From: Elusimicrobiota bacterium
GTDB taxonomy: Bacteria > Elusimicrobiota > Elusimicrobia > UBA1565 > UBA9628
Assembly: GCA_023249675.1 (NCBI GenBank)
Contig: JAHFCE010000017.1
Coordinates: 1 to 61,439 of the forward strand
DNA length: 61,439 nucleotides
Reading direction: 5' to 3'
Within the stretch, counting starts at the first letter, position 1. Every line of letters starts with the position of its first letter. Position numbers and translations under genes: made by a program. The notes under the pieces were generated by a model, which made no database searches, was not told where the DNA came from, and saw only the letters and a program-made list of their open reading frames with translations. Shown piece after piece: positions 12,394 through 58,280 of the stretch.

Positions 12394-12983
12394 TAGTTGA
12401 ACCTCTTCAGAGGAATCGCGGTCATGACCGACGCGGAGACGCTGTTCCAGCCGAGGATATCGGGCTTCTTCAAGACTTCAAGAGCGCTGACATGCATGAG
12501 CGGTGTTGCGCCCTCAAGCCGCTGAAGCCAGCGGTCGATGTCGTTGAACTTGAGCGTGAGCTGGATGGCCGAAGTCTGGAAGATGAGGCCGCTGTCCTCA
12601 GTCTCGACGATGGGGTGGAACATCTCGGGGGTCAAGCCGTCCGCGCGCAGAGAGTCAATCACCGCGTTCGAGAGCCACTGTTGCCGGTCCTTGACGTGCG
12701 GCAAAGTCCCGTAGGAGCCCACAAGCTGGCCGCGCAGATCCTGGTACGCGGCGCCGGACTCCGCCATGGCCCGAGCCGCTTCAATCTCCCTCGTCAGGCG
12801 GGAAATCTTTTTCTGCGGCGGCTTGTACACGCCGAAGTAGGCGGCGGCGACCAAAAATGCGCTCATCCCAAACGCCCGCCCGAAGCGCTTCACACCCTTG
12901 TCGCGGATCGTCGCGAGCAGCAGGCTGCCCTCGCCCTTGATGGCGTTCAGGTATATCTTCAAGTCGATCTCTTGACCAGCCAT
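12393..12983 (-). CDS. pilO: PilO-like alignment-complex protein
   Basis: A 196-residue protein with one membrane helix near residues 37-52, a coiled-coil (RLTREIEAARAMAES) and a ferredoxin-like C-terminal domain, the PilO layout. It pairs with PilN in the periplasm. Overlap with pilMN and pilP by one base each indicates coupled translation. Identification rests mainly on position and architecture. Confidence 0.7.
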   Translation of the reverse strand: MAGQEIDLKIYLNAIKGEGSLLLATIRDKGVKRFGRAFGMSAFLVAAAYFGVYKPPQKKISRLTREIEAARAMAESGAAYQDLRGQLVGSYGTLPHVKDRQQWLSNAVIDSLRADGLTPEMFHPIVETEDSGLIFQTSAIQLTLKFNDIDRWLQRLEGATPLMHVSALEVLKKPDILGWNSVSASVMTAIPLKRFN

Positions 12984-14614
12984 CAGGGTTTTCCCTTCCC
13001 CTTCAGATCGATGGTGAATTCCGTCCGTTCCTCGAGCTTGCGCACGAGCGCCTCGGGATCGAGGCCGCTGCCGGCCTGATCCGGCGCGCTCGGACGCGTC
13101 TGCAAAGTCATCTGGACATCGAAGAGCGGCCCAAGCTTCGGGTCCTGGAGCAAAGTTTGCTTGAACTGGTTGGCCGTGTCCTGCTCCTCGGCCCCCGTGG
13201 CGCCCCGGACGCGGCCGCTCAGGCTGAGGTCGAGCGCGCCTTTATCGCTGGCCAACGGATGGGCCACGGTGAACTTGATCAGCCACATGTTATCTGGCAT
13301 GAGCTCGACGATCTCGCGCAGAATCGAGGAAAGCGGCTGGCTCTTGCCGCCCGTCACCGAACGCAGGCGCGCGAGCTGGTCCCTCATCTCGAGGAGTTTC
13401 GCGTCGATCTCGGCGGGTTGCAGGCCCTGGAGCGCGGCTCTCACGTCCGGCTCCACCCTATAGGTGTTGAGCGCCTTGGCGCGGCTCTTGTAGGTGGTCG
13501 CCTGGAATAGTCCCACGCCCGCGATGAGCGCTGCGAGCGCTATGCCCGCGATGATGATATCTCGCGCCGTCCGACGCTCCTCCTCGCCGATGCGGTCCTG
13601 TGCCGCGAGGTCGATCGTGACCGCGGAAGAGACATTCGGACGCATGGAGGCGCCGATGGCGGCATAGCCGCCCCAGTCCCCGGCCTTGATCGATAGGAGC
13701 TTCGCCGTGTCCTGGATCTCCGTGGAGACTCCGGTCTCCGCGGTGAAAGCGTCCTTCCACGCTCCGAGCGCGGCAGGCGCGCCGCTGAGCTTGATCTTTG
13801 CGATGCCGGTCAATCCAAGCTGTTTCTGGGCGAAGGAGAGGCAGCCGGTCATGTCCACCTTGCGCTGATCGTTGAGGGAGGTCTCCTCTCCAAGGAAGAC
13901 CTCGCGAAAGAAGACCGGCAGCCCACGGTCGCAGATCATGATCCGGATGTTGCCGCCGTCGAAATGGGCCTGCACGAACGGTTTGGCGCCCTTCGTCGGC
14001 TCGATGCACTGCCAGAGACGCAACACCGAGCAGGGCGCGACCTCGAGGCCGATCAGGTTTAAGCCAAGAGACTGCAGCAGCTTCTGGATGTTGGACAGAT
14101 TCTTGTTCTGCGTGACCGCGATGAGCACGCCCAGGCGCGGCTTGCCGGCCGCGTCGAGCGGCATCGGTCCGGCTTGAAAGTCGTGGGCCAACGCGTCAAA
14201 CGGGATCGGGATGTACTTCTTGGCCTCAAGCGGCACCGCCGAGCGGAGGAAGCGTCGTTCCATCGCCGGCACCGGGAAATAGCGCAGCAGGCCCAGATGG
14301 TGTGAGAGTGTTACGACCACGTTCTTCGAGCTCCATCGGACCGAGGACATCGATTGGCGGATGAGACCCCCGACCTTGGCTGGGTCAGAAAGGAAGTCCG
14401 TGCTCATCGTCATGGTGCCGGTAGCCGCCTTACCCTCGGGCGGGATCGGGATGCGCACAAGGTGATCCACAGCGACCGCTCCGCTCTTCCCCGGGAGCGT
14501 CTGCGCGATATACACCGTCTCCGGGCCTAAATAGAGGCCGAGGCAAGGCCCGGAAGTCGGCTGGCCCTTGCCGAAGGCCAAGGTGTCGATGAGTTGGTCG
14601 ATGTTGACTCTCAT
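12983..14614 (-). CDS. pilM: Fused PilM-PilN type IV pilus protein
   Basis: A 543-residue single chain. Residues 1 to about 330 resemble the actin-like PilM fold (LGLYLGPETVYIAQ; PLEAKKYIPIPFDALAHDF; HFDGGNIRIMI). It is followed by a short motif TIDLAAQDR at about 331-340 that resembles the PilN INLLP start, a membrane helix (IIIAGIALAALIAGVGLF) and a periplasmic PilN-like coiled-coil plus ferredoxin-like domain. Separate PilM and PilN bind through this motif; here they are covalently joined. ATG 14614 overlaps the previous stop (ATGA). Confidence 0.8.
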   Translation of the reverse strand: MRVNIDQLIDTLAFGKGQPTSGPCLGLYLGPETVYIAQTLPGKSGAVAVDHLVRIPIPPEGKAATGTMTMSTDFLSDPAKVGGLIRQSMSSVRWSSKNVVVTLSHHLGLLRYFPVPAMERRFLRSAVPLEAKKYIPIPFDALAHDFQAGPMPLDAAGKPRLGVLIAVTQNKNLSNIQKLLQSLGLNLIGLEVAPCSVLRLWQCIEPTKGAKPFVQAHFDGGNIRIMICDRGLPVFFREVFLGEETSLNDQRKVDMTGCLSFAQKQLGLTGIAKIKLSGAPAALGAWKDAFTAETGVSTEIQDTAKLLSIKAGDWGGYAAIGASMRPNVSSAVTIDLAAQDRIGEEERRTARDIIIAGIALAALIAGVGLFQATTYKSRAKALNTYRVEPDVRAALQGLQPAEIDAKLLEMRDQLARLRSVTGGKSQPLSSILREIVELMPDNMWLIKFTVAHPLASDKGALDLSLSGRVRGATGAEEQDTANQFKQTLLQDPKLGPLFDVQMTLQTRPSAPDQAGSGLDPEALVRKLEERTEFTIDLKGKGKP

Positions 14615-16539
14615 TCGCCCCTCGCGAATGAGAGATCGACCTTTGAACCCGCGCCGGAGGCGGCGGAGGTCATGAAGATTCGTTTGGAATCCACCTGATG
14701 GCGATTGACGAGAATGCCGGCGACCATCTTCGCGCGTTGGGCGGCGAGCGCTGCTCCGTCGCCTTCTTGCGCGCCGCTATGTCCGGTCACGCGCAGATTT
14801 TCAAGCGGATGAGACGGCAGGGCCGCCGCGGCAGCCGCGAGCAGTCTCTCCGCGTCCGGTGTCAGCTGATACGTGTCTGTCTTAAAGTTCAGGACCCAGG
14901 CGGTAACTTTGGCCTTCGCCGGCGCCGCCACATCTGTGGCTTTAGGCTCAGCCGCGCGCGCGGCCTGCCCCTTGCCGGGCTTCCCAGCCTTTCCGCCGCG
15001 AACGGGGCGCTTGATAACGAGGCGCTTGGTGCGTGGGGCCGAGGCGCGCGATGAGAGCTCGACCGGACGCGCGGCGGCGGCCGCACCGGCGACGAGAGGC
15101 TTCTCCGCGGCGCCGGCCATGTCGGCGCTCGGCGCGAGCGCTGGCGATGCGACGGGTGCGGATGTCTTCTCCTCAAGCAGCTTCTCGCTTGGGGCGTCAT
15201 CGAGAACCTCGATCCAGCGGTGCAGCGAACGCTGGCGGTTCTTCGCGTCGAGCGCAGTCAAAACGCACTCGTAGCGGCCGGGCGGCAAGGTCTCCCCGAA
15301 ATAGTTCTGCCGGCCGTTCCAGAAAATCTGGTGGAACACCGGCCCGCCGCCAAGGACGTCCTGGAGCGGCGCGAGCTCCGCGCCGTCGCGGGACGGTTGC
15401 AGAAGCTGGAACTTCCAGGATACGAGGCCGGCAGGCGGATCGGACACGGAAAACTCGATGACGACGCCCTGGCCGCGCGCGGGACGAAACGTCGATGGAT
15501 ACACGCCGAGAGAGATCGGCGGTCCGAGCTCGTCTCCGACCGCGCTTTCCATGATGAGGCTCAGCGGTTGATTGTAGACGAATAGGACGACCACGCCCTT
15601 GAAGTCCAGCAGGGCCTTGGGGATATCCACCTGAGTGTTCATCAGATTGACGCGCACGCGGGGCGGGGCCACGCCCGCGTTGAATAAATGAGACGAGATG
15701 CCCATCGTGCGGCGCATGTCCAGGACCTTCGCGTCGCCGATTGCGGTGCCTTCGGGCAGAATCACGGCCTGGGTCGCGCCGAGCGCGAAAACGAGTTTCG
15801 TCAGCGGATCAAGAATCTTGGATGCGCCGGCCTGAAACGCGATGCCGCTCTGGAACATCAGGGGCGTCGGGATGCCGATTGCTTCGGGGTCGCCGTTCTC
15901 GCGCATTACGACGTGCACACCCTCCACCGATTTGATGTCTGCCAGGCTCTTCTCCGCCGCGCTATGCAGGCGGGCTCGGATTTCCTTGCGCATCAGGGCT
16001 TTGTTCGTCGCCGGCATGTCGTCGGCGCGCGCGCGTACGGGTGCGGCCTTTGCGCGCGCGGCTAAGCGCGTGGAGTCCGCGTCGATCGAGTCGAACGGCG
16101 CGCGGCTCGAGCGGGCGGCCTCGCCCTTGCTGATCGTCTCGGGCGCGGTCGTCGGGTCGGCTCGCTTCATCGGGCTTGCGGCGTTCACGCTGACAGGTTC
16201 GGCAACGCTCACTCCCGCCTTTGGCGCAGGGGCCCCTCCCGCGCCCCCGCTGCTGTTCATGCGATGCGTGATCAAATTGATGTACTCATTGGCCATCGAG
16301 CGCTCGGATGGGTCGCCTTTCGTCAGTATTTCCATGAACCGATCCATCGCCTGGATATCCTCGCCCTGCTCATACAAATGCACGGCGTTGCGCATCGGGC
16401 GGCTCAAGCCCGCACCGCCATCCTCGTCCTCCGCCTGAACGAGTGAGGCCGTGAGAGCAATCCACATAACGACGATAATGGCAATTGTCTTCAAAGGCGT
16501 GCAATAACGCGCTTCCAGGACGCAGGGCGTCCCGGACAC
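14611..16539 (-). CDS. OmpA-like C-terminal domain protein at head of pilus operon
   Basis: A 642-residue exported protein. The N-terminal hydrophobic segment IIVVMWIALTASLVQA is a signal peptide. A short TPR-like stretch follows (AVHLYEQGEDIQAMDRFMEIL), then a disordered region, a middle beta-rich part and a C-terminal OmpA-like domain (VTGHSGAQEGDGAALAAQRAKMVAGILV) that in the family binds peptidoglycan. The start is GTG 16539, with a -10 only 5 bases upstream; TTG 16494 is an alternative that would suit the signal peptide. Likely anchors the pilus machine to the wall (inference from operon position). Confidence 0.65.
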   Translation of the reverse strand: MSGTPCVLEARYCTPLKTIAIIVVMWIALTASLVQAEDEDGGAGLSRPMRNAVHLYEQGEDIQAMDRFMEILTKGDPSERSMANEYINLITHRMNSSGGAGGAPAPKAGVSVAEPVSVNAASPMKRADPTTAPETISKGEAARSSRAPFDSIDADSTRLAARAKAAPVRARADDMPATNKALMRKEIRARLHSAAEKSLADIKSVEGVHVVMRENGDPEAIGIPTPLMFQSGIAFQAGASKILDPLTKLVFALGATQAVILPEGTAIGDAKVLDMRRTMGISSHLFNAGVAPPRVRVNLMNTQVDIPKALLDFKGVVVLFVYNQPLSLIMESAVGDELGPPISLGVYPSTFRPARGQGVVIEFSVSDPPAGLVSWKFQLLQPSRDGAELAPLQDVLGGGPVFHQIFWNGRQNYFGETLPPGRYECVLTALDAKNRQRSLHRWIEVLDDAPSEKLLEEKTSAPVASPALAPSADMAGAAEKPLVAGAAAAARPVELSSRASAPRTKRLVIKRPVRGGKAGKPGKGQAARAAEPKATDVAAPAKAKVTAWVLNFKTDTYQLTPDAERLLAAAAAALPSHPLENLRVTGHSGAQEGDGAALAAQRAKMVAGILVNRHQVDSKRIFMTSAASGAGSKVDLSFARGE

Positions 16540-33731: not shown

Positions 33732-33760
33732 TTGACAGGCTTCCGATCGTCTGTTAGACT
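33732..33760 (+). promoter_or_regulatory. Promoter of the lipoprotein operon
   Basis: TTGACA (33732-33737), 17-bp spacer, TAGACT (33755-33760). The leader of about 30 bases contains a strong GGAGG site before ATG 33797. Confidence 0.7.
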
Positions 33761-33796: not shown

Positions 33797-34372
33797 ATGA
33801 ACAGCAATCGTTGCCAGAATCTGGCTCTCGCTCTCGCCGCCGCCTTCGCTTTGGGCGCCTGCGCGGGCAAGAGCAAGCCGTCGCCGATCGCCAGCAACGC
33901 CCCGGAGTGGGTGAACAAGGGCTCTGGAGCCTTCAAGGACCAAGGCGGCAAGCAGGTCTTCTACGGTGTGGGCATCGCGCAGGGCATCCGCAATCGCGCG
34001 CTCGCCGTCACCGCCGCCGATGACCGGGGCCGCGCCGAGATCGCGAAGATCATGAACTCCTATGTCACGAGCCTGACCAAGGACTACATGGCCTCGGTCA
34101 CCGCCGGCGACATGACGAAGTCCTCCGAGGAGCAACTGGTCTCTCAGACGATGAAGAACTTCGCCAAGTTCACGCTCCACGGCTCCGTGCCGATCGACCA
34201 CTGGAAGGATCCGGCGGACGGGACTCTGTTCGCCCTCGTCAAGCTCGATATGAGCGCCATCCAGGCCAGCCTCAATGAATCAAAGGAGCTCGACGCCAAG
34301 GTCCGCGACTACGTGAAGGCGAACGCGGAGAAGGCCTTCGATGAGCTATCCGCGGAAGAGGCCAAGCACTGA
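33797..34372 (+). CDS. LPP20-like lipoprotein
   Basis: A 191-residue lipoprotein with a lipobox near residue 20 (LGACAG). The body (PEWVNKG..., YGVGIAQGI..., AADDRGRAEIAKIMNSYV) matches the LPP20 family, known from Helicobacter and flagellar FlgP-like proteins. ATG 33797 with GGAGGAC is preferred to the in-frame ATG at 33767. First of five exported proteins in a row. Related to the gene at 36347. Confidence 0.72.
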   Translation: MNSNRCQNLALALAAAFALGACAGKSKPSPIASNAPEWVNKGSGAFKDQGGKQVFYGVGIAQGIRNRALAVTAADDRGRAEIAKIMNSYVTSLTKDYMASVTAGDMTKSSEEQLVSQTMKNFAKFTLHGSVPIDHWKDPADGTLFALVKLDMSAIQASLNESKELDAKVRDYVKANAEKAFDELSAEEAKH

Positions 34373-34373
34373 T

Positions 34374-34973
34374 ATGCGCTTGACTGCCTGGAGCACGACG
34401 CTCATTGCGGCGTTGGTGATGTCGGCTTGCGGAGGGACCTCCGTTCAGCGCATGGACGCCGGCGAGGTCAAGGACGTCAGCGGACGCTGGAACGACACGG
34501 ATTCGCGCCTTGTGGCCGAGGAGATGATCTCGGACTGTCTGTCGCGGCCGTGGTACGGGAAGGCACAGTCCGAGCTCGGAAAGAACCCGACGGTCATCGT
34601 GGGAACGGTGAAGAACCAATCCCAGGAGCACATCGCCACGGACACCTTCGTCGAGGACTTGCAGAGGTCTCTCATCAACTCGGGCAAGGTGGAGTTCGTT
34701 GCGAGCAAGAACGAGCGCGGCGAAGTCCGCGAAGAGCGCATGGACCAGGACACCAACGCCTCCGATGAGACGCGCAAGGCCCATGGACAAGAGACGGGAG
34801 CGGACTTCATGCTCAGCGGCGCCCTCAATCAGATCATCGACCAAGAGGGCGGCAAGGCGGTGGTCTTTTACCAGACCAACCTCAAACTGCTCAACATGAA
34901 GACCCACCAAGTCGTCTGGAACGGGCAGAAGAAGTTGAAGAAATTCGTCACGAAGGCCCGGGCGTCTTGGTAA
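34374..34973 (+). CDS. LpoB-like penicillin-binding-protein activator lipoprotein
   Basis: A 199-residue lipoprotein with a lipobox (VMSACGG, Cys18). The fold region NPTVIVGTVKNQSQEHIATDT, SGKVEFVASKNER and GADFMLSGALNQII matches the LpoB/COG3417 family. E. coli LpoB activates the peptidoglycan synthase PBP1b from the outer membrane. It starts one base after the previous stop. It is followed by a terminator-like hairpin. Confidence 0.75.
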   Translation: MRLTAWSTTLIAALVMSACGGTSVQRMDAGEVKDVSGRWNDTDSRLVAEEMISDCLSRPWYGKAQSELGKNPTVIVGTVKNQSQEHIATDTFVEDLQRSLINSGKVEFVASKNERGEVREERMDQDTNASDETRKAHGQETGADFMLSGALNQIIDQEGGKAVVFYQTNLKLLNMKTHQVVWNGQKKLKKFVTKARASW

Positions 34974-34978
34974 GAGCC

Positions 34979-36328
34979 ATGGCCAATACTCGGCCCCGCC
35001 TCTCATTCATGAGAGGCGGGGCCGTCGTCTTTTTGGCCTGCCTTCTCGCCGCCTGCGGCGGCCCGTCCGGCTCGATGCGCAAGGAAGTCAACGGCCTCCT
35101 CGCCGCCCGCGATTTCGCGGGGGCTGAAGCTCGGATTACTCAGGAGAAGCAGGGCTCCTACGGAAAGAAAAACAAGGTCCTTTATTACCTCGACCTCGGA
35201 GCCGTCCAGCACGACGGCGGGAAATATAAGGAGAGCGATCAGAGTTTTGAAGCCGCCGAGACGCGCATGGAGGAACTCTTCACCAAGAGTGTCTCCAAGG
35301 CTGCGGGTACCCTCCTCCTCAATGACAATACGACCGAGTACGCTGGAGAGCGTTTCGAACGCGCCCTGGTCAACGTCTACCGCGCGCTCAACTATCTCTT
35401 CCGAAGCGACCGTGAAGGAGCCCTCGTTGAGATCCGCAAGCTGTCCCGTCTCCTGCAGGAGTACGCCGACACCAGCGCCAGCAAGGCGACCGCGTACAAG
35501 GACGATGCCTTCGCGCAGTATCTGAGCAGCCTTCTCTACGCCGACGACGGCAAGGGCGACGACGCCCGCATTTCCCTGGATAAGTCGAAAAAGGTCTACG
35601 AGTTCTACGCCGCTTCCTACGGGACCCCCGCTCCTCGCTTGGAGCCGCCTCTAGACGACGCGCAAGCCACGGGAGAGTTGGTCTTCCTCCACTTGAACGG
35701 CGTCGCGCCGAGAAAGATCGGCAAGTCCTTTTCCGTCGCTTGGAACGAGGCGGTGGTCGCGCTCAAGGCCAGCAAAGACGATGAGAAGGAGTCCGCCCAG
35801 GCCCAGAACGCCCTGCGCGCCGGCCTGATCGGAAATACCATCACCGTGGCCTATCCGGCCTACGTACAGGACCCCTTCCAGATTGCCGGCTCGCAGGTGG
35901 AAGCCGCGGGACGCAAGGCCGACACCCAGTTGATGGAGGACGTCTCCGCCATCGCCATGAAAGACCTCGCCGAGCGCCAAGCCGCCATCAAGGTGCGCGC
36001 CATCGCCCGCGCCACGGTCAAGTACATCCTGGCCAAGGCCGTCGCCGATGAGGTGAAAAAGAAGTACGGCGCTACGTCCTGGCAGGCCTTGCTGGCCAAG
36101 GCCGGCACCGCCGCCGCATCGGCCGCCACGGAGATCGCCGACACCCGCGCCTGGGCGACCCTCCCCTCCCAGTTCCGCATGGCCCGATTGAGGCTTCCGC
36201 CCGGAACGCACGATGTCACCGTGAACTACACCGGTCCCACGGGGGCCCTCCTCGCCACTCGAACCTTCAAGGACGTGATCATCCGCAAAGGCGCCCGCAC
36301 TTATCTCCACGACCGAACGGCCCTGTAA
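34979..36328 (+). CDS. COG3014-like lipoprotein with TPR-type N-terminal half
   Basis: A 449-residue protein with signal peptide and lipobox (CLLAACGG). Helical repeats fill residues 35-200 (YYLDLGAVQHDGGKYKESDQ, RALVNVYRALNYL, DAFAQYLSSLLYA), then a beta-rich C-terminal half. This layout matches the uncharacterised COG3014 family often next to LpoB-like genes. Starts at 34979 (weak AAGAG) or 35009 are possible. A strong hairpin covers the codons of the signal peptide and ATG 35009 sits inside it. Confidence 0.65.
   Translation: MANTRPRLSFMRGGAVVFLACLLAACGGPSGSMRKEVNGLLAARDFAGAEARITQEKQGSYGKKNKVLYYLDLGAVQHDGGKYKESDQSFEAAETRMEELFTKSVSKAAGTLLLNDNTTEYAGERFERALVNVYRALNYLFRSDREGALVEIRKLSRLLQEYADTSASKATAYKDDAFAQYLSSLLYADDGKGDDARISLDKSKKVYEFYAASYGTPAPRLEPPLDDAQATGELVFLHLNGVAPRKIGKSFSVAWNEAVVALKASKDDEKESAQAQNALRAGLIGNTITVAYPAYVQDPFQIAGSQVEAAGRKADTQLMEDVSAIAMKDLAERQAAIKVRAIARATVKYILAKAVADEVKKKYGATSWQALLAKAGTAAASAATEIADTRAWATLPSQFRMARLRLPPGTHDVTVNYTGPTGALLATRTFKDVIIRKGARTYLHDRTAL
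34992..35034 (+). terminator. Terminator-like perfect hairpin inside the signal-peptide codons
   Basis: A perfect 15-bp inverted repeat (arms 34992-35006 and 35009-35023) with a 2-base spacer, very GC-rich at the base. It is followed by a T-run at 35030-35034. It lies 19 bases after the lpoB-like stop and within the next coding sequence. It could end transcription after the LpoB-like gene or act as an attenuator or translation lock. Confidence 0.6.
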
Positions 36329-36346
36329 AAACCGATGGGAGAAACC

Positions 36347-37036
36347 ATGAAACGAACACTCTGGCTTGCCATACCCGTGATACTATGCGCCTGCGCCGCA
36401 GGGGCAAAAGCCGGCTCAAAGCCCGATTGGGTGGACGGCACGAGCCGTTCGTATCCGCGCGAGAGGTATCTTATCGGCGTCGGCATGGGCGACGACCGTG
36501 CCACTGCGTCTGACCGAGCCCGCTCGGAGATCTCTAAGATCTTCACGACCAACGTCAATGTGACCACGAACCTCAACGAGTCCGAGAGCACCTCAAAGCA
36601 GGGCTCGAAGACGGAGAATTCCTTCTCCCAAGCCATCTCTCAAAGCCTGCAGACCGCCTCGAAGAAGGCGCTGGAAGGAGTCGAGGTCGCGGAGAACTGG
36701 AAGGACGACGCCACGAGGCAGCAGTACGCTCTGGCGGTGCTCGACCGCTCCAAAGCGCTCGCTGCGGTCAAAGACAAGATCGACGATTTCGACCAGCAGG
36801 CTCAGCAATGGAAGGCCCAGATGGACTCAGCCTCCGATAAGGTCGGCAAGGTCAAAGCTGCGATGAAGCTGCTGGCTCTGCTCAAGGCTCGCGCGGAATT
36901 AAACAGCGAGCTCCGGGTCCTGGACGCCGGCGGCAAGACCCTCCCCAGCCCCTTCGATGAGGCCGCCGTGCGCGTCGCAGCCGCGAAAACAGTCGCCGAA
37001 CTCGACGTCATCGTCGACATCAAGGAGGGAAAATGA
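36347..37036 (+). CDS. LPP20 family lipoprotein (second copy)
   Basis: A 229-residue lipoprotein with a lipobox (LCACAAG). KPDWVDGTSRSYPRERYLIGVGMGDDRATASDRARSEI is split here by family motifs typical of LPP20: W-x-D, Y-x-x-G-x-G and the A-R-x-x-I helix. A coiled-coil follows at about residues 145-165. GGGAGAA precedes ATG 36347. Probably works with the other lipoproteins of the cluster. Confidence 0.72.
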   Translation: MKRTLWLAIPVILCACAAGAKAGSKPDWVDGTSRSYPRERYLIGVGMGDDRATASDRARSEISKIFTTNVNVTTNLNESESTSKQGSKTENSFSQAISQSLQTASKKALEGVEVAENWKDDATRQQYALAVLDRSKALAAVKDKIDDFDQQAQQWKAQMDSASDKVGKVKAAMKLLALLKARAELNSELRVLDAGGKTLPSPFDEAAVRVAAAKTVAELDVIVDIKEGK

Positions 37037-37962
37037 AACTTCTCACGCCGGCCTCGATGGCGCTCGCCTTCGGGCCCCTTTTCTGCGCGTTCTTTGCGGC
37101 GGCGCAGGACCATCCCCTGATCTCCGTCTATCCTGGCTCCAAACTCGAGGACCGCAAGGCGGTCGCCTTCGACGAGTTCAAGTTCCCCGTTGACAAGATG
37201 TGGGCGGGGAAGTTCACCAAGGAGCTCCCCCTGGAAGGGAAGATCACGCATCTGCGCTACTCGAACCCGCCGGAGCGCTCCACTTTGGAGCTGCTGCGCA
37301 ACTACGAGACGGCCCTCAAGCAGGCGGGATTCCAGACCCTCTTCAGCTGCGGCAAGGAGGACTGCGGCAAAGGAGACGGCGAGACCCAGGTGGGACATTA
37401 CTCGCCGGGCTACGACACGCGCTTCATCTCCGCCAAGCTTCCGCGCCCGGAAGGAGACGTCTACGCGGCGATCAACATCTCGGGTTACTACCATGACACC
37501 TGGATCACGGTCGTCGAGGTCAAGCCGATGGATGAGGCTATGTCGGGCCGCGCGGCAGCACCTTCCCCCCAGTCGCAGGCCTCCGCGCCCGCGGCTCCTC
37601 CCGCATCCTCCTCCCGGGGAGGCTCCGGTCATGTGGTGACGGGAGTGGTCAAAGGCCTGAGCCAGTTCGGGATGCAGGCCAAGGCCGGAGCGGCCTCCGA
37701 GAAGGCGGACATCATCGTCGAAGGCGAAGTCGAGACGAGCCCCTTCCAAGGCAACGATGCTCGTGTCAAATGGGCTCGAACGACGGCCACCCTCACTCTC
37801 CGAGACGGCCGCACTTCAAAGATCTTCACCCAATTCAACGTCACCGACAAGCAGGGCTCGGGCGACTACACTGAAGCCGTCCGCCGCAGCCAAGCGGAAA
37901 TGGGCAAGAAGGTCGCAGCCCAGATCAACTCTGAGATCGCCGCCTACTTCGAGAACCAGTAA
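37033..37962 (+). CDS. Exported DUF4892-like protein with extra C-terminal domain
   Basis: A 309-residue protein with a signal peptide ending near FFAAAQ. Residues 25-175 match DUF4892 by motif (HPLISVYPGSKL; STLELLRNYETALKQAGF; CGKEDCG; KLPRPEGDVYAAI). A Pro/Ala/Ser linker leads to a C-terminal beta domain (ADIIVEGEVETSPF...TLTLRDGRTSKIF) like DUF4410/LPP20-type domains. ATG overlaps the previous stop by 4 bases. Function unknown; related proteins are often beside OmpA family genes. Confidence 0.6.
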   Translation: MKLLTPASMALAFGPLFCAFFAAAQDHPLISVYPGSKLEDRKAVAFDEFKFPVDKMWAGKFTKELPLEGKITHLRYSNPPERSTLELLRNYETALKQAGFQTLFSCGKEDCGKGDGETQVGHYSPGYDTRFISAKLPRPEGDVYAAINISGYYHDTWITVVEVKPMDEAMSGRAAAPSPQSQASAPAAPPASSSRGGSGHVVTGVVKGLSQFGMQAKAGAASEKADIIVEGEVETSPFQGNDARVKWARTTATLTLRDGRTSKIFTQFNVTDKQGSGDYTEAVRRSQAEMGKKVAAQINSEIAAYFENQ

Positions 37963-54803: not shown

Positions 54804-55843
54804 CGTTTAACTGTTTCCGGCAACGGTTGCTTGCGGAACAAGTCGAGCGTGCGCCGCGCGTGGGCCTTCTGCGCGGACGTGGCGGCTTTCGAGAGCAGGA
54901 CTGCGCGCGCCATGTCGGCGTTGGGGCCGAGAAACAGGCGCCGGTCCACGACAGGCAGCCCCGATGCCCGGCGCCCGGCGTCATCCTTGGCGAAATAGGA
55001 CGCGCCCTCTTCGATGCGGCCGTCGGCCAGCCGCACCTCGCCGCTCACCGAGGAAGCATAGCCACCTCCCGGCAACGACATAAAATGCTCCACGAAGCGG
55101 AGCGCGGCTTTCGCCCGGAGGACATCGCCAGACAGCACCACAAACGTCTGATCGGCGAGCGTTTTCGCGTATTCGGAGGGACTGCGATAGACGCCGCCCC
55201 ACACCGCGTCATCGGGGCCCGGCGCGGGCTCCGGACGCCGCCGCACGGCCTCCACGCGGCGCCGCGCATCGGCCGCGAAACCGTCCGCCTTTGACGCATC
55301 GGCCTTCAGCGTCTCCAAGATCAAGCCCGCCCACGGCATCAACAGCCTCGGCGTCAGGCGCGCCGCCCCCGCGAGCGCGCGGCCATCGGGATGGATGAGC
55401 ACCGTCGTGGGCCAGGCCCCCACGCCGTACAGAGAGGCCAGATCGGGCCGCTCATCGACGTCGGCGCGCGTGGCGACAAGATGGGCCGCAATCCACGCCG
55501 CCGTCTTCGAGTCCGCGTACGTCGTCTCTTCCATGAGACGCGCTTCGCGCGACCAGAACGGCGCAAGATGCAGAAGCACGAGCTTATGCTGAACTCGGGC
55601 GCGCGACAGCGCGTTGGAATTGAAATCGGCGAAGACGACCAGCGTCTTTGATGAGATTCGATACGCCGGCGTCTCGCGCCGGCCCCAGCCGCCTGTCATC
55701 CAGGACGGGAACACGCCGGGACTCATCGCGATCAGACCGGCGGCCAAAGCGCACAGCGACATGATCGCGCCTAAAATGATCATGACCATCGCGTGAACGC
55801 GTTTGGAGCGGGCTTTTTCTGCGTCGGTGCGATCGTCGATCAT
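54800..55843 (-). CDS. Membrane-anchored thioredoxin-like protein without CxxC
   Basis: A 347-residue protein: N-terminal helix (about 18-42), then a thioredoxin-like domain ([50 protein letters not shown]) and a helical tail. The active site is FWSREA, not CxxC, yet the cis-Pro context (WPTTV) remains. The DVDERPD resembles YyaL. ATG 55843 overlaps the YyaL stop (ATGA), so the two are coupled. Probably a degenerate partner of YyaL. Confidence 0.65.
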
Positions 55844-57909
55844 AATTGATCCAGCCGTCGGCGCAATTCCATCGGATCGTCGGTCGGCAGTCCGCACGCG
55901 CGCCCGACGCACAGGTACGCTCGCGCGCGCGGCGCGCCGACGATGTCGCGCGCGGCGGGAAAATGCCTCGCAAACGCCGCCTGATCCGCTCGCCGATAGG
56001 CGGCGATCACGAGACTCGGCCGCAGCTTCTCCCGCGCGACGCCGACAAGTTCCGCTCCGCCCGGAAGATCGCTGTCGGCGACAAGGAGCATGGCCGTTTT
56101 TCCAATGCTGCGGTCAAAAGCGGCCAAAAGAAAAGGCATCGCGAGCGGCCGCGTGGATAAGCGCGGCCCAAATTTTTCCAACGTGTCCTCCGCGAAGCGG
56201 CGAAACGTCTCTCTCCCCGTCAGCTCGTGCAGGCGCAAGCAGACATCCGTTAATACCGAGCTCGGCGCCGGCTCCACACCATCGTGATCTTCCAGAGTTC
56301 GCGTGAACAGTTCCGTCCCGTCCTCTTTGGCCGTCTGATACAGTCCCCCGCCGTCCGCCGCGAAGCGGCGAATGGCTTCCATCGCCAAATCTGTTCCCCA
56401 CGCGAGGTCTTCAGGCCTGAAAGAGGTTTCATACAGCGCGAGCAAACCATACGCCATAAACGCGTAGTCGTCAGCCATCCCGGGGATCGCCCGCGAACCC
56501 GCGCGCCAGCGTCTGCAGAGCGTCTTCCCATCGGAAGAGGCCAGTTCACGGCGGACGAAGTCCGCCGCGCCTTCAGCGAGCTCCAGACATCTTCCGTCGC
56601 CGGTCGCGCCGAAGGCGCGAGCCAGCCCCGCGATCGCAAGCCCGTTCCAGGAAGTTAATATTTTGTCGTCCAAGGAAGGCCGCGGGCGTTTCGCTCGCTC
56701 GGCGAACAGCTTGGCTCGCGCCACACCCGCCGCCGCTTCTCCCATTGCCGCCGGATCCTTGTCGTACAGCACGCACTTCCCGATCAATTCGCCCTGAGGG
56801 TCCGCGAACGCGTTCGTCCCCTCGACCACGCCGTACCTCGCGCAGAAGTCTTTCGCAGCGCTGCCGAGAATTTTCTCAACCTCGGATTTTCTCCAGAGAT
56901 AAAACGCCCCCTCCGCTTTATGCCCCTGAGGCTCGTCATACGGAAGGCTGTCCGCATCCTCGGCGGAGTAGAACCCCCCATCCGGCGCCTTCAGGTCGCG
57001 TTCGATGTAATCGACGGTCCGTTCCAGGGCTCGCAAAATCTCCCCGTCTTTGGACGCCGTCCACGCGTCCGCGAGGTTTTCCAACAATTGGGCGTTGTCG
57101 TACAGCATCTTCTCGAAGTGCGGTATCCTCCACGCATGATCCGTCGAGTAACGCGCGTACCCTCCCCCAAGCTGATCAAAGAGTCCCCCCCGCGTCATGG
57201 CCCGCAAGGTCTCGAGTGCCATTGTCTTCGCGTCGACGTTCCCCGTCCGAGCATGCCGCCGCAGAAGGAATCTCACATTGGCCGGCATCGGGAACTTGGG
57301 CGCTTCGCCGAAGCCTCCGTTTTCGGCGTCGAAGGAGGCGCGCAGATTCTGCTCGGCGGCCGCGAGCGCGGACGCCTCCGGGCGGCCGCGGGACTCATCC
57401 TGCGCCACAGCGTAGGCCGTCACGGTGCGCGTGAGGCTCACGGCGTCGTTTTCGATGTCCGCCCTCCGTTCCCTCCAAAGAGCAGCCAGACGCTCTAAAA
57501 GCCCCGTCCAGCTCGGGCGCCCATAACGCGACTCGGGCGGGAAATAGGTGCCGCCGTAAAACGGCTTGAGCTCCGGCGTCAGAAAAGCGTTGAGGGGCCA
57601 GCCGCCCTGGCCCGTCAGGGCCTGAACCGCCGTCATGTACACCTTGTCCACGTCGGGGCGTTCCTCGCGGTCGAGCTTGATGCAGACGAAATGCGTGTTC
57701 ATCATCTCGGCGACGGCGGGCACCGAGAAGCTCTCGTGCTCCATGACGTGGCACCAGTGGCACGTCGAATAGCCGATCGAGAGCAGGATCGGCTTGTTCT
57801 CGGTCTTCGCCTTCGCGAAGGCCTCCGATCCCCATGGATACCAGTCCACGGGGTTGTCCTTGTGCTGGAGCAGATAGGGGCTTTGCTCGGCGGCCAGACG
57901 ATTGGCCAT
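55840..57909 (-). CDS. YyaL-like thioredoxin domain plus six-hairpin glycosidase-like protein
   Basis: A 689-residue protein: DUF255 thioredoxin domain with C50-x2-C53 ([15 protein letters not shown]) and [12 protein letters not shown], followed by an alpha/alpha toroid ([48 protein letters not shown]). Function is not settled; it is highly conserved in many bacteria. ATG 57909 overlaps the fluC stop by one base. The upstream in-frame extension is shadow. Confidence 0.88.
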
Positions 57910-58280
57910 CAGTTCCCGCCGAAGACGGAGCCGACCCGAAATAGGGCAAGACCCGCCGCGACGCTGACAAGAACGTACGCCGCGCCGCGCAGCGGCGCGG
58001 CGCGCAGCAGCGAGTCGCACTCAAGAATCAAGGCGGAGAAAGTTGTGTAGGCGCCGCAGAAGCCCGTCATGAGCAGCATCCGGCCGTGCCGACCGCCGAA
58101 GCCGCGCTTGGCCGCGGACGCATCGAAGAATCCGACGAAAAGGCAGCCCGTCAGGTTGACGGCCAAGGTTCCCCATGGCAGCCAGCCCCCAAGCAGGTCG
58201 AACACGGCAAGCGAGACAAAGTAGCGCGCGAGCACGCCCGCGATCCCCCCCGTCAACAGCGCTCCGATCGTGGTGAACAT
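57909..58280 (-). CDS. crcB: Fluoride channel FluC (CrcB)
   Basis: A 123-residue four-helix protein. [16 protein letters not shown] and [12 protein letters not shown] are the family motifs with the phenylalanine box and Asn. Works as an antiparallel dimer exporting fluoride. ATG 58280 is chosen as the family start and because the -10 ends 5 bases upstream; ATG 58295 is possible. No fluoride riboswitch fits the short upstream region. Confidence 0.9.

Follow-up and report, generated by a model that had tools for sequence, protein, structure and literature searches.

A U-tailed, GC-rich hairpin is written into the signal-peptide code of a lipoprotein gene (gene 3) directly downstream of an lpoB-like gene. 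Its stem is conserved through compensatory changes, its U-tract is enriched at synonymous sites, and its presence is linked to the lpoB neighbourhood. We read this hairpin, with a probability of roughly 0.6, as an intrinsic terminator that would attenuate transcription partially, and in a ribosome-sensitive manner, between lpoB and the lipoprotein genes that follow it, and that probably limits the amount of gene 3 protein relative to LpoB. Termination as such, its efficiency, its dependence on ribosomes and its purpose, namely less gene 3 protein than LpoB, are what we infer from these observations.

A terminator-like hairpin within the gene 3 signal peptide

The window, the whole stretch of 61,439 nucleotides that was analyzed, belongs to a 2.6-Mb genome that encodes both Rho and tmRNA. 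The closest relatives with a name are metagenome-assembled genomes of Elusimicrobia/Elusimicrobiota, a group of uncultured bacteria. Five same-strand genes, separated by small gaps of a few nucleotides, follow each other in one run behind a sigma-70-like promoter, and the run 33797-37962 would be transcribed as a single transcript. The relevant features are the following:

33732..33760, + strand: candidate operon promoter, sigma-70-like TTGACA-17-TAGACT with TG ahead of the -10 (10 of 12 matches; a consensus match only)
33797..34372, + strand: gene 1, predicted lipoprotein and first gene of the operon (signal peptide ...LGAC; inferred start)
34374..34973, + strand: lpoB-like gene (peptidoglycan-synthase activator LpoB), lipoprotein (PF13036, E 1.4e-42)
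34979..36328, + strand: gene 3, lipoprotein, with the hairpin within its 5' coding end (lipobox LAAC, Cys codon 35054-35056)
34991..35005, + strand: 5' arm of the terminator-like stem, coding for RPRLS
35006..35009, + strand: loop TTCA, 4 nt, varying among relatives
35010..35024, + strand: 3' arm of the stem, coding with flanking bases for MRGGAV
35025..35034, + strand: U-rich tract TCGTCTTTTT, coding for VVFL of the hydrophobic core
36347..37036, + strand: LPP20 lipoprotein gene, downstream in the same gene run (PF02169, E 6.6e-14)
37033..37962, + strand: last gene of the run (weak DUF4892 match, under the cut-off)

The lpoB-like protein scored just below the cut-off of model TIGR02722. A Pfam search with gene 1 yielded no match. 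Gene 3, which has distant relatives in Pseudoalteromonas, matched nothing in Pfam, NCBIfam or the solved structures of the PDB.

The perfect 15-bp GC-rich inverted repeat and T-run described in the initial annotation are both present, the stem 34991-35024 comprising 12 G-C pairs. Its distance from the LpoB stop codon (TAA, 34971-34973) had been given as 19 bases and amounts to 17 nt. The ATG at 35009, previously located in the second arm, has its TG in that arm, whereas its A belongs to the loop. As a gene start this codon is probably wrong: it occurs in this genome only and lies in the stem-loop. A start at this position with a half-coding hairpin was therefore rejected in favor of ATG 34979, the likely start of gene 3, which is conserved in 14 of 17 relatives. 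From ATG 34979, 12 nt upstream of the stem, the hairpin lies wholly inside the open reading frame with both arms coding, in agreement with the earlier proposal that the same DNA codes for the next protein's signal peptide. It spans the n-region and the beginning of the hydrophobic core.

The hairpin alone has a minimum free energy (MFE) of -33.7 kcal/mol, and the region 34960-35070 differs from dinucleotide shuffles with z = -6.1 (0 of 200 shuffles as stable). No other stem of 10 bp or more in the window is as strong, and none of the others has a clear U-run. A GC-rich stem with a short loop is thus followed by a U-tract, the combination expected of an intrinsic terminator, at a site that is operon-internal, between same-strand genes with gaps of a few nucleotides. 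The U-tract contains 6 T in 8 bases; that its run of five begins only 5 nt past the stem speaks against a terminator, as do weak U-tracts in three relatives (L027, L028 and L044).

Other stems were also noted in the window. A 12-bp GC stem at 57977-58003 on the minus strand is no more than about 20 nt away from where the minus-strand gene 55840-58020 is predicted to start, and may be part of a 5' UTR if that start is mis-set. At 14608-14634, an 11-bp perfect stem without U-run overlaps the junction of the minus-strand genes 12983-14614 and 14611-16539.

Folds that included 130 nt of upstream sequence revealed no anti-terminator, and the hairpin dominates both the MFE and the centroid structure. 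The folds thus show no sign of the mutually exclusive structures of a leader-peptide or riboswitch attenuator; a known RNA family was rejected, since searching Rfam with the hairpin, at E values of up to 1, brought no match. A pattern and a covariance model served to search the rest of the genome. No second copy was found in the 2.6 Mb, which rules against a genome repeat or mobile REP-type palindrome, and the nearest pattern match elsewhere is an unrelated intergenic terminator. The covariance model gave one other convincing match (C24:114595) and a weaker one (C20:30252). The former is an ordinary terminator past a stop codon, GGCCCCGC...GCGGGGCC with the tail TTCGTTTTT; close to the latter, at the same locus (L083), lies a second intergenic terminator with a long T-run, GGTCCCCGGCGC...GCGCCGGGGACC, ATTTTTTTT. 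The intergenic terminators at C24 and L083 share the design of the embedded hairpin, which therefore has the shape of this genome's terminators.

Conservation of the stem and of its U-tract

Homologues of gene 3 are present in 42 of the 44 genomes of the family, and the order lpoB-gene 3 is kept in relatives. All 17 lpoB-adjacent copies within the genus carry the same 34-nt hairpin (15+4+15, without gap) in the same frame, with the stem starting 16-25 nt past the lpoB stop codon. The initial annotation had suggested an alignment of homologues as a check for stem conservation through compensatory change, and this alignment bears the idea out. Standard pairs make up 98.4% of the pair cells, compared with 48-59% when the partner was slid by 1-3 columns as a control. 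Double-sided changes affect 8 of the 15 pairs, and 0 of 500 shuffles reached any of five measures, these being counts over related genomes and not over independent events. Several compensations alter the protein: in L036 Gly to Arg compensates for Arg to Val, in L037 Val to Phe does so for Arg to Lys, and in L030 the basal pair is preserved through a Val to Phe change. Protein selection alone does not produce such changes, so that the stem is what is selected, with the signal peptide following; the signal-peptide sequence RPRLSxxRGGAV is shaped by the stem.

The codons for Pro/Arg and Gly/Ala are naturally complementary, and fairly good folding persists when this peptide is recoded synonymously, which could suggest that the codons of RPRLS and RGGAV happen to be complementary and are kept by protein selection alone. 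Since the peptide itself favors folding, a comparison of MFE with synonymous recodings is less sharp than a terminator-specific score and yields weak z values in some copies. We scored stem plus U-tract, comparing each locus with 400 synonymous recodings. The score of the window and of 13 further genus copies tops all 400 recodings, and the same applies outside the genus to L039, L042, L046, L051 and L071. At most 2 of 400 recodings were as good in L043, L050 and L064, the result was weaker in L044 (5 of 400), and L041 and L057 drop out because of one C.A mismatch in the stem. Together with the covariation counts, the protein-altering compensations and the unrelated peptides and stems that other genera have at this site, these scores led us to reject a coding coincidence, which we consider scarcely credible.

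Enrichment of T after the stem indicates more than structure, as the bases past a purely structural stem would not matter. Phe codons just past the stem of 25 hairpin-bearing loci show a TTT:TTC ratio of 15:13, whereas the remainder of these genes has 29:279 (p 6e-8) and the other signal peptides encoded in these operons have 8:45 (p 5e-4). Summed over the 25 loci, the highest number of T within 8 bases is 128, where 98.5 is expected from synonymous recodings, corresponding to a z of about 10 if loci are taken as independent, which related loci are not. Homologues without hairpin have a ratio of 17:11 overall, with the TTT codons mostly coming from the AT-richer genus g9; the ratio in GC-rich homologues without hairpin is 3:11. 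As the enrichment exceeds that of other signal peptides and of these GC-rich homologues, it is not just an effect of the start of a gene. The proposed double use of this DNA, as RNA stop signal and as signal-peptide code, is hence supported by covariation and by the synonymous-site enrichment of the U-tract, with termination itself the inferred part.

The lpoB/gene 3 junction in other genera and post-transcriptional readings

Terminator-like hairpins of unrelated sequence with T-rich tails occupy the same signal-peptide site in six other genera. Hairpins outside the genus are those of

L039, genus g11
L042 and L043, genus g4
L046 and L050, genus g6
L051, one genome of genus g12
L064, genus g7
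L071, genus g2

Start codons outside the genus were inferred, and the start-to-stem distance varies there. In a protein tree, the 16 hairpin-bearing rows of the genus form one clade (100/99), while the remaining hairpin rows fall on the other side, interleaved with rows that carry none. This interleaving indicates either multiple origins or a full replacement of the sequence. The hairpin goes along with the neighborhood of lpoB: the gene 3 paralogues found without adjacent lpoB, some of them in the same genus, carry no such hairpin, and their start regions are unstructured. In most of 43 loci, the 80 nt past the lpoB stop codon are structured (mean z = -2.9; z = -7.3 in the window), compared with a mean z of -0.2 for the 80 nt past the gene 3 stop codon, at the LPP20 junction (39 loci).

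Further structures were observed at junctions of this operon. In four genomes of genus g12 (L053, L055, L062 and L065), the lpoB/gene 3 junction forms a 15-16 bp stem without U-tract. Its 34-nt loop contains the start codon of gene 3, and the stem includes part of the Shine-Dalgarno (SD) sequence. A hairpin of 7-9 bp just downstream shares its 3' arm in the same four loci; the two would be mutually exclusive and thus switch-like. L076, from another family of the order, has at this junction a GC-rich stem of ~11-14 bp with the SD sequence (AAGGAG) in its 5' arm, start codons in the loop and TCTTTTC after the 3' arm, a combination of terminator and SD lock. At gene 1/lpoB junctions of some genomes in g4 and g12, very strong intergenic hairpins of 14-16 bp, mostly without clear U-run, are located 8-26 nt past the gene 1 stop codon (L042:738-769, L052:2905-2937 in reverse orientation, and L051, L053 and L055). 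At the lpoB start of L036, a stem of 17 pairs, G-U included, is located about 20 nt past the gene 1 stop codon.

A stem at such a position might also work after transcription. As a ribosome-termination structure, or as a lock on the SD and start region, it could set re-initiation at gene 3 after lpoB without any termination of transcription. The placement of the stem 16-25 nt past the lpoB stop codon in all 17 copies of the genus, the structured lpoB/gene 3 junction next to an unstructured gene 3/LPP20 junction, and the g12 stems enclosing ATG and part of the SD sequence all favor this possibility. Structures past stop codons are moreover known to govern re-initiation, and the hairpin resembles the RTS described in that context in being a stable structure directly past a stop codon (PMC7518266). 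However, RTS are reported to show depletion within operons and no link to the termination of transcription (PMC7518266), whereas the window's hairpin is mid-operon and U-tailed. Re-initiation does not need a U-tract selected at synonymous sites, and outside the genus the distance from start codon to stem is variable. We consider this explanation unlikely, though worth keeping in view.

We assign a lower probability still, and regard as rather improbable, that the hairpin serves stabilization or processing by protecting the 3' end of lpoB mRNA after distal cleavage or decay, so that lpoB mRNA would outlast gene 3 mRNA. A very stable GC-rich stem just past an operon-internal gene would suit this role, as would the comparable strong stems without clear U-run that some genomes of g4 and g12 carry past gene 1; the U-tract enrichment and a sequence that is no genome-wide repeat of the REP kind argue against it. 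The stems lacking a U-tract in g12 and g4 imply that stems of this operon need not all terminate, which counts against a terminator and keeps the post-transcriptional readings alive; taken together, we give these readings a minority chance. The main argument against them in the window's genus is the conserved U-tract.

The position of the hairpin over the n-region and the first part of the hydrophobic core could also hint that it slows the ribosome within the signal peptide and thereby aids membrane targeting of the lipoprotein. Paralogues of the same family that are not beside lpoB manage without a hairpin, and the U-tract would be left unexplained, making this very improbable.

Proposed attenuation model and relation to known systems

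In the attenuation reading that we prefer, RNA polymerase would first transcribe gene 1 and lpoB. At the U-tract, some polymerases would release an RNA ending just past the hairpin, giving rise to lpoB mRNAs, while the remaining ones would read through to gene 3 and the two genes behind it, LPP20 and the last one. A ribosome finishing lpoB or starting gene 3 could hinder folding of the hairpin. Given the short distance of the hairpin from the end of lpoB and from the start of gene 3, the share of read-through should follow how closely the ribosome trails the polymerase. With the terminator inside the gene 3 reading frame, it follows from the layout alone, independently of any assay, that every full-length gene 3 mRNA has to be a product of read-through and that no promoter, even inside lpoB, can bypass it. 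A point against a terminator at this place is that the cut mRNAs would hold the gene 3 start without a stop codon, at a cost for trans-translation by the tmRNA system.

More tentatively, and with somewhat less than even confidence, the lpoB/gene 3 junction may be a gate under selection, without any bypass and interchangeable in form, being a signal-peptide-coded terminator in most genera and a stem locking the start codon in others. Each form would have been repeatedly replaced by unrelated sequence, with the step-down from LpoB to gene 3 kept. If so, a lipoprotein signal peptide would be dictated by RNA and not by the needs of the protein.

A terminator predicted within coding sequence is readily taken for a false positive; in this case compensatory changes, some of them protein-altering, preserve one, and in several lineages terminator-like hairpins arose or were replaced at this position. 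Signal peptides tolerate sequence change, and their Leu/Phe codons supply a U-tract, so that they are able to accommodate a terminator which promoters downstream do not bypass. The junction suggests that lipoprotein dosage relative to the peptidoglycan-synthase activator LpoB matters, and offers a testable case for ribosome control of termination between neighboring genes, in a phylum that has received little molecular study.

Attenuation between two cistrons has a precedent in the E. coli pyrE attenuator, which reportedly (Bonekamp et al. 1984) sits at the end of the upstream cistron, is modulated by UTP and is governed by the ribosome finishing that cistron. The pyrE attenuator likewise sits between two cistrons but lies outside the pyrE coding sequence, and a nucleotide-sensing link is not part of the case for the window's hairpin. 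Also in E. coli, a terminator placed 17-18 nt past a stop codon works with an efficiency between about 0.12 and 0.8, according to the way in which the ribosome follows; one within the first 100 bp of an open reading frame retains most of its efficiency and lowers expression of the upstream gene, a loss attributed by the authors to non-stop decay (PMC4824070). These positions match that of the hairpin described here, 17 nt past a stop codon and 12 nt past a start codon; the E. coli terminators are synthetic constructs, whereas the window's is natural and conserved. Internal terminators between the binding-protein and translocator genes of clostridial ABC importers set mRNA ratios (PMC9045158). 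As in the window, a U-tailed stem-loop there separates an upstream gene expected in excess from downstream genes, and variants low in U with long GC stems are typical there, too. The clostridial terminators are, however, intergenic, with gaps >50 bp (PMC9045158), whereas the window's lies wholly in the signal-peptide code of the downstream gene. Term-seq mapping in E. coli revealed transcripts that end inside coding sequences, some by intrinsic termination, and a covarying stem inside a signal peptide is not among the features described in the portions of that report considered here (PMC7815308). Operon-internal terminators are thus already known; the hairpin described here would be a natural, conserved variant written into signal-peptide code.
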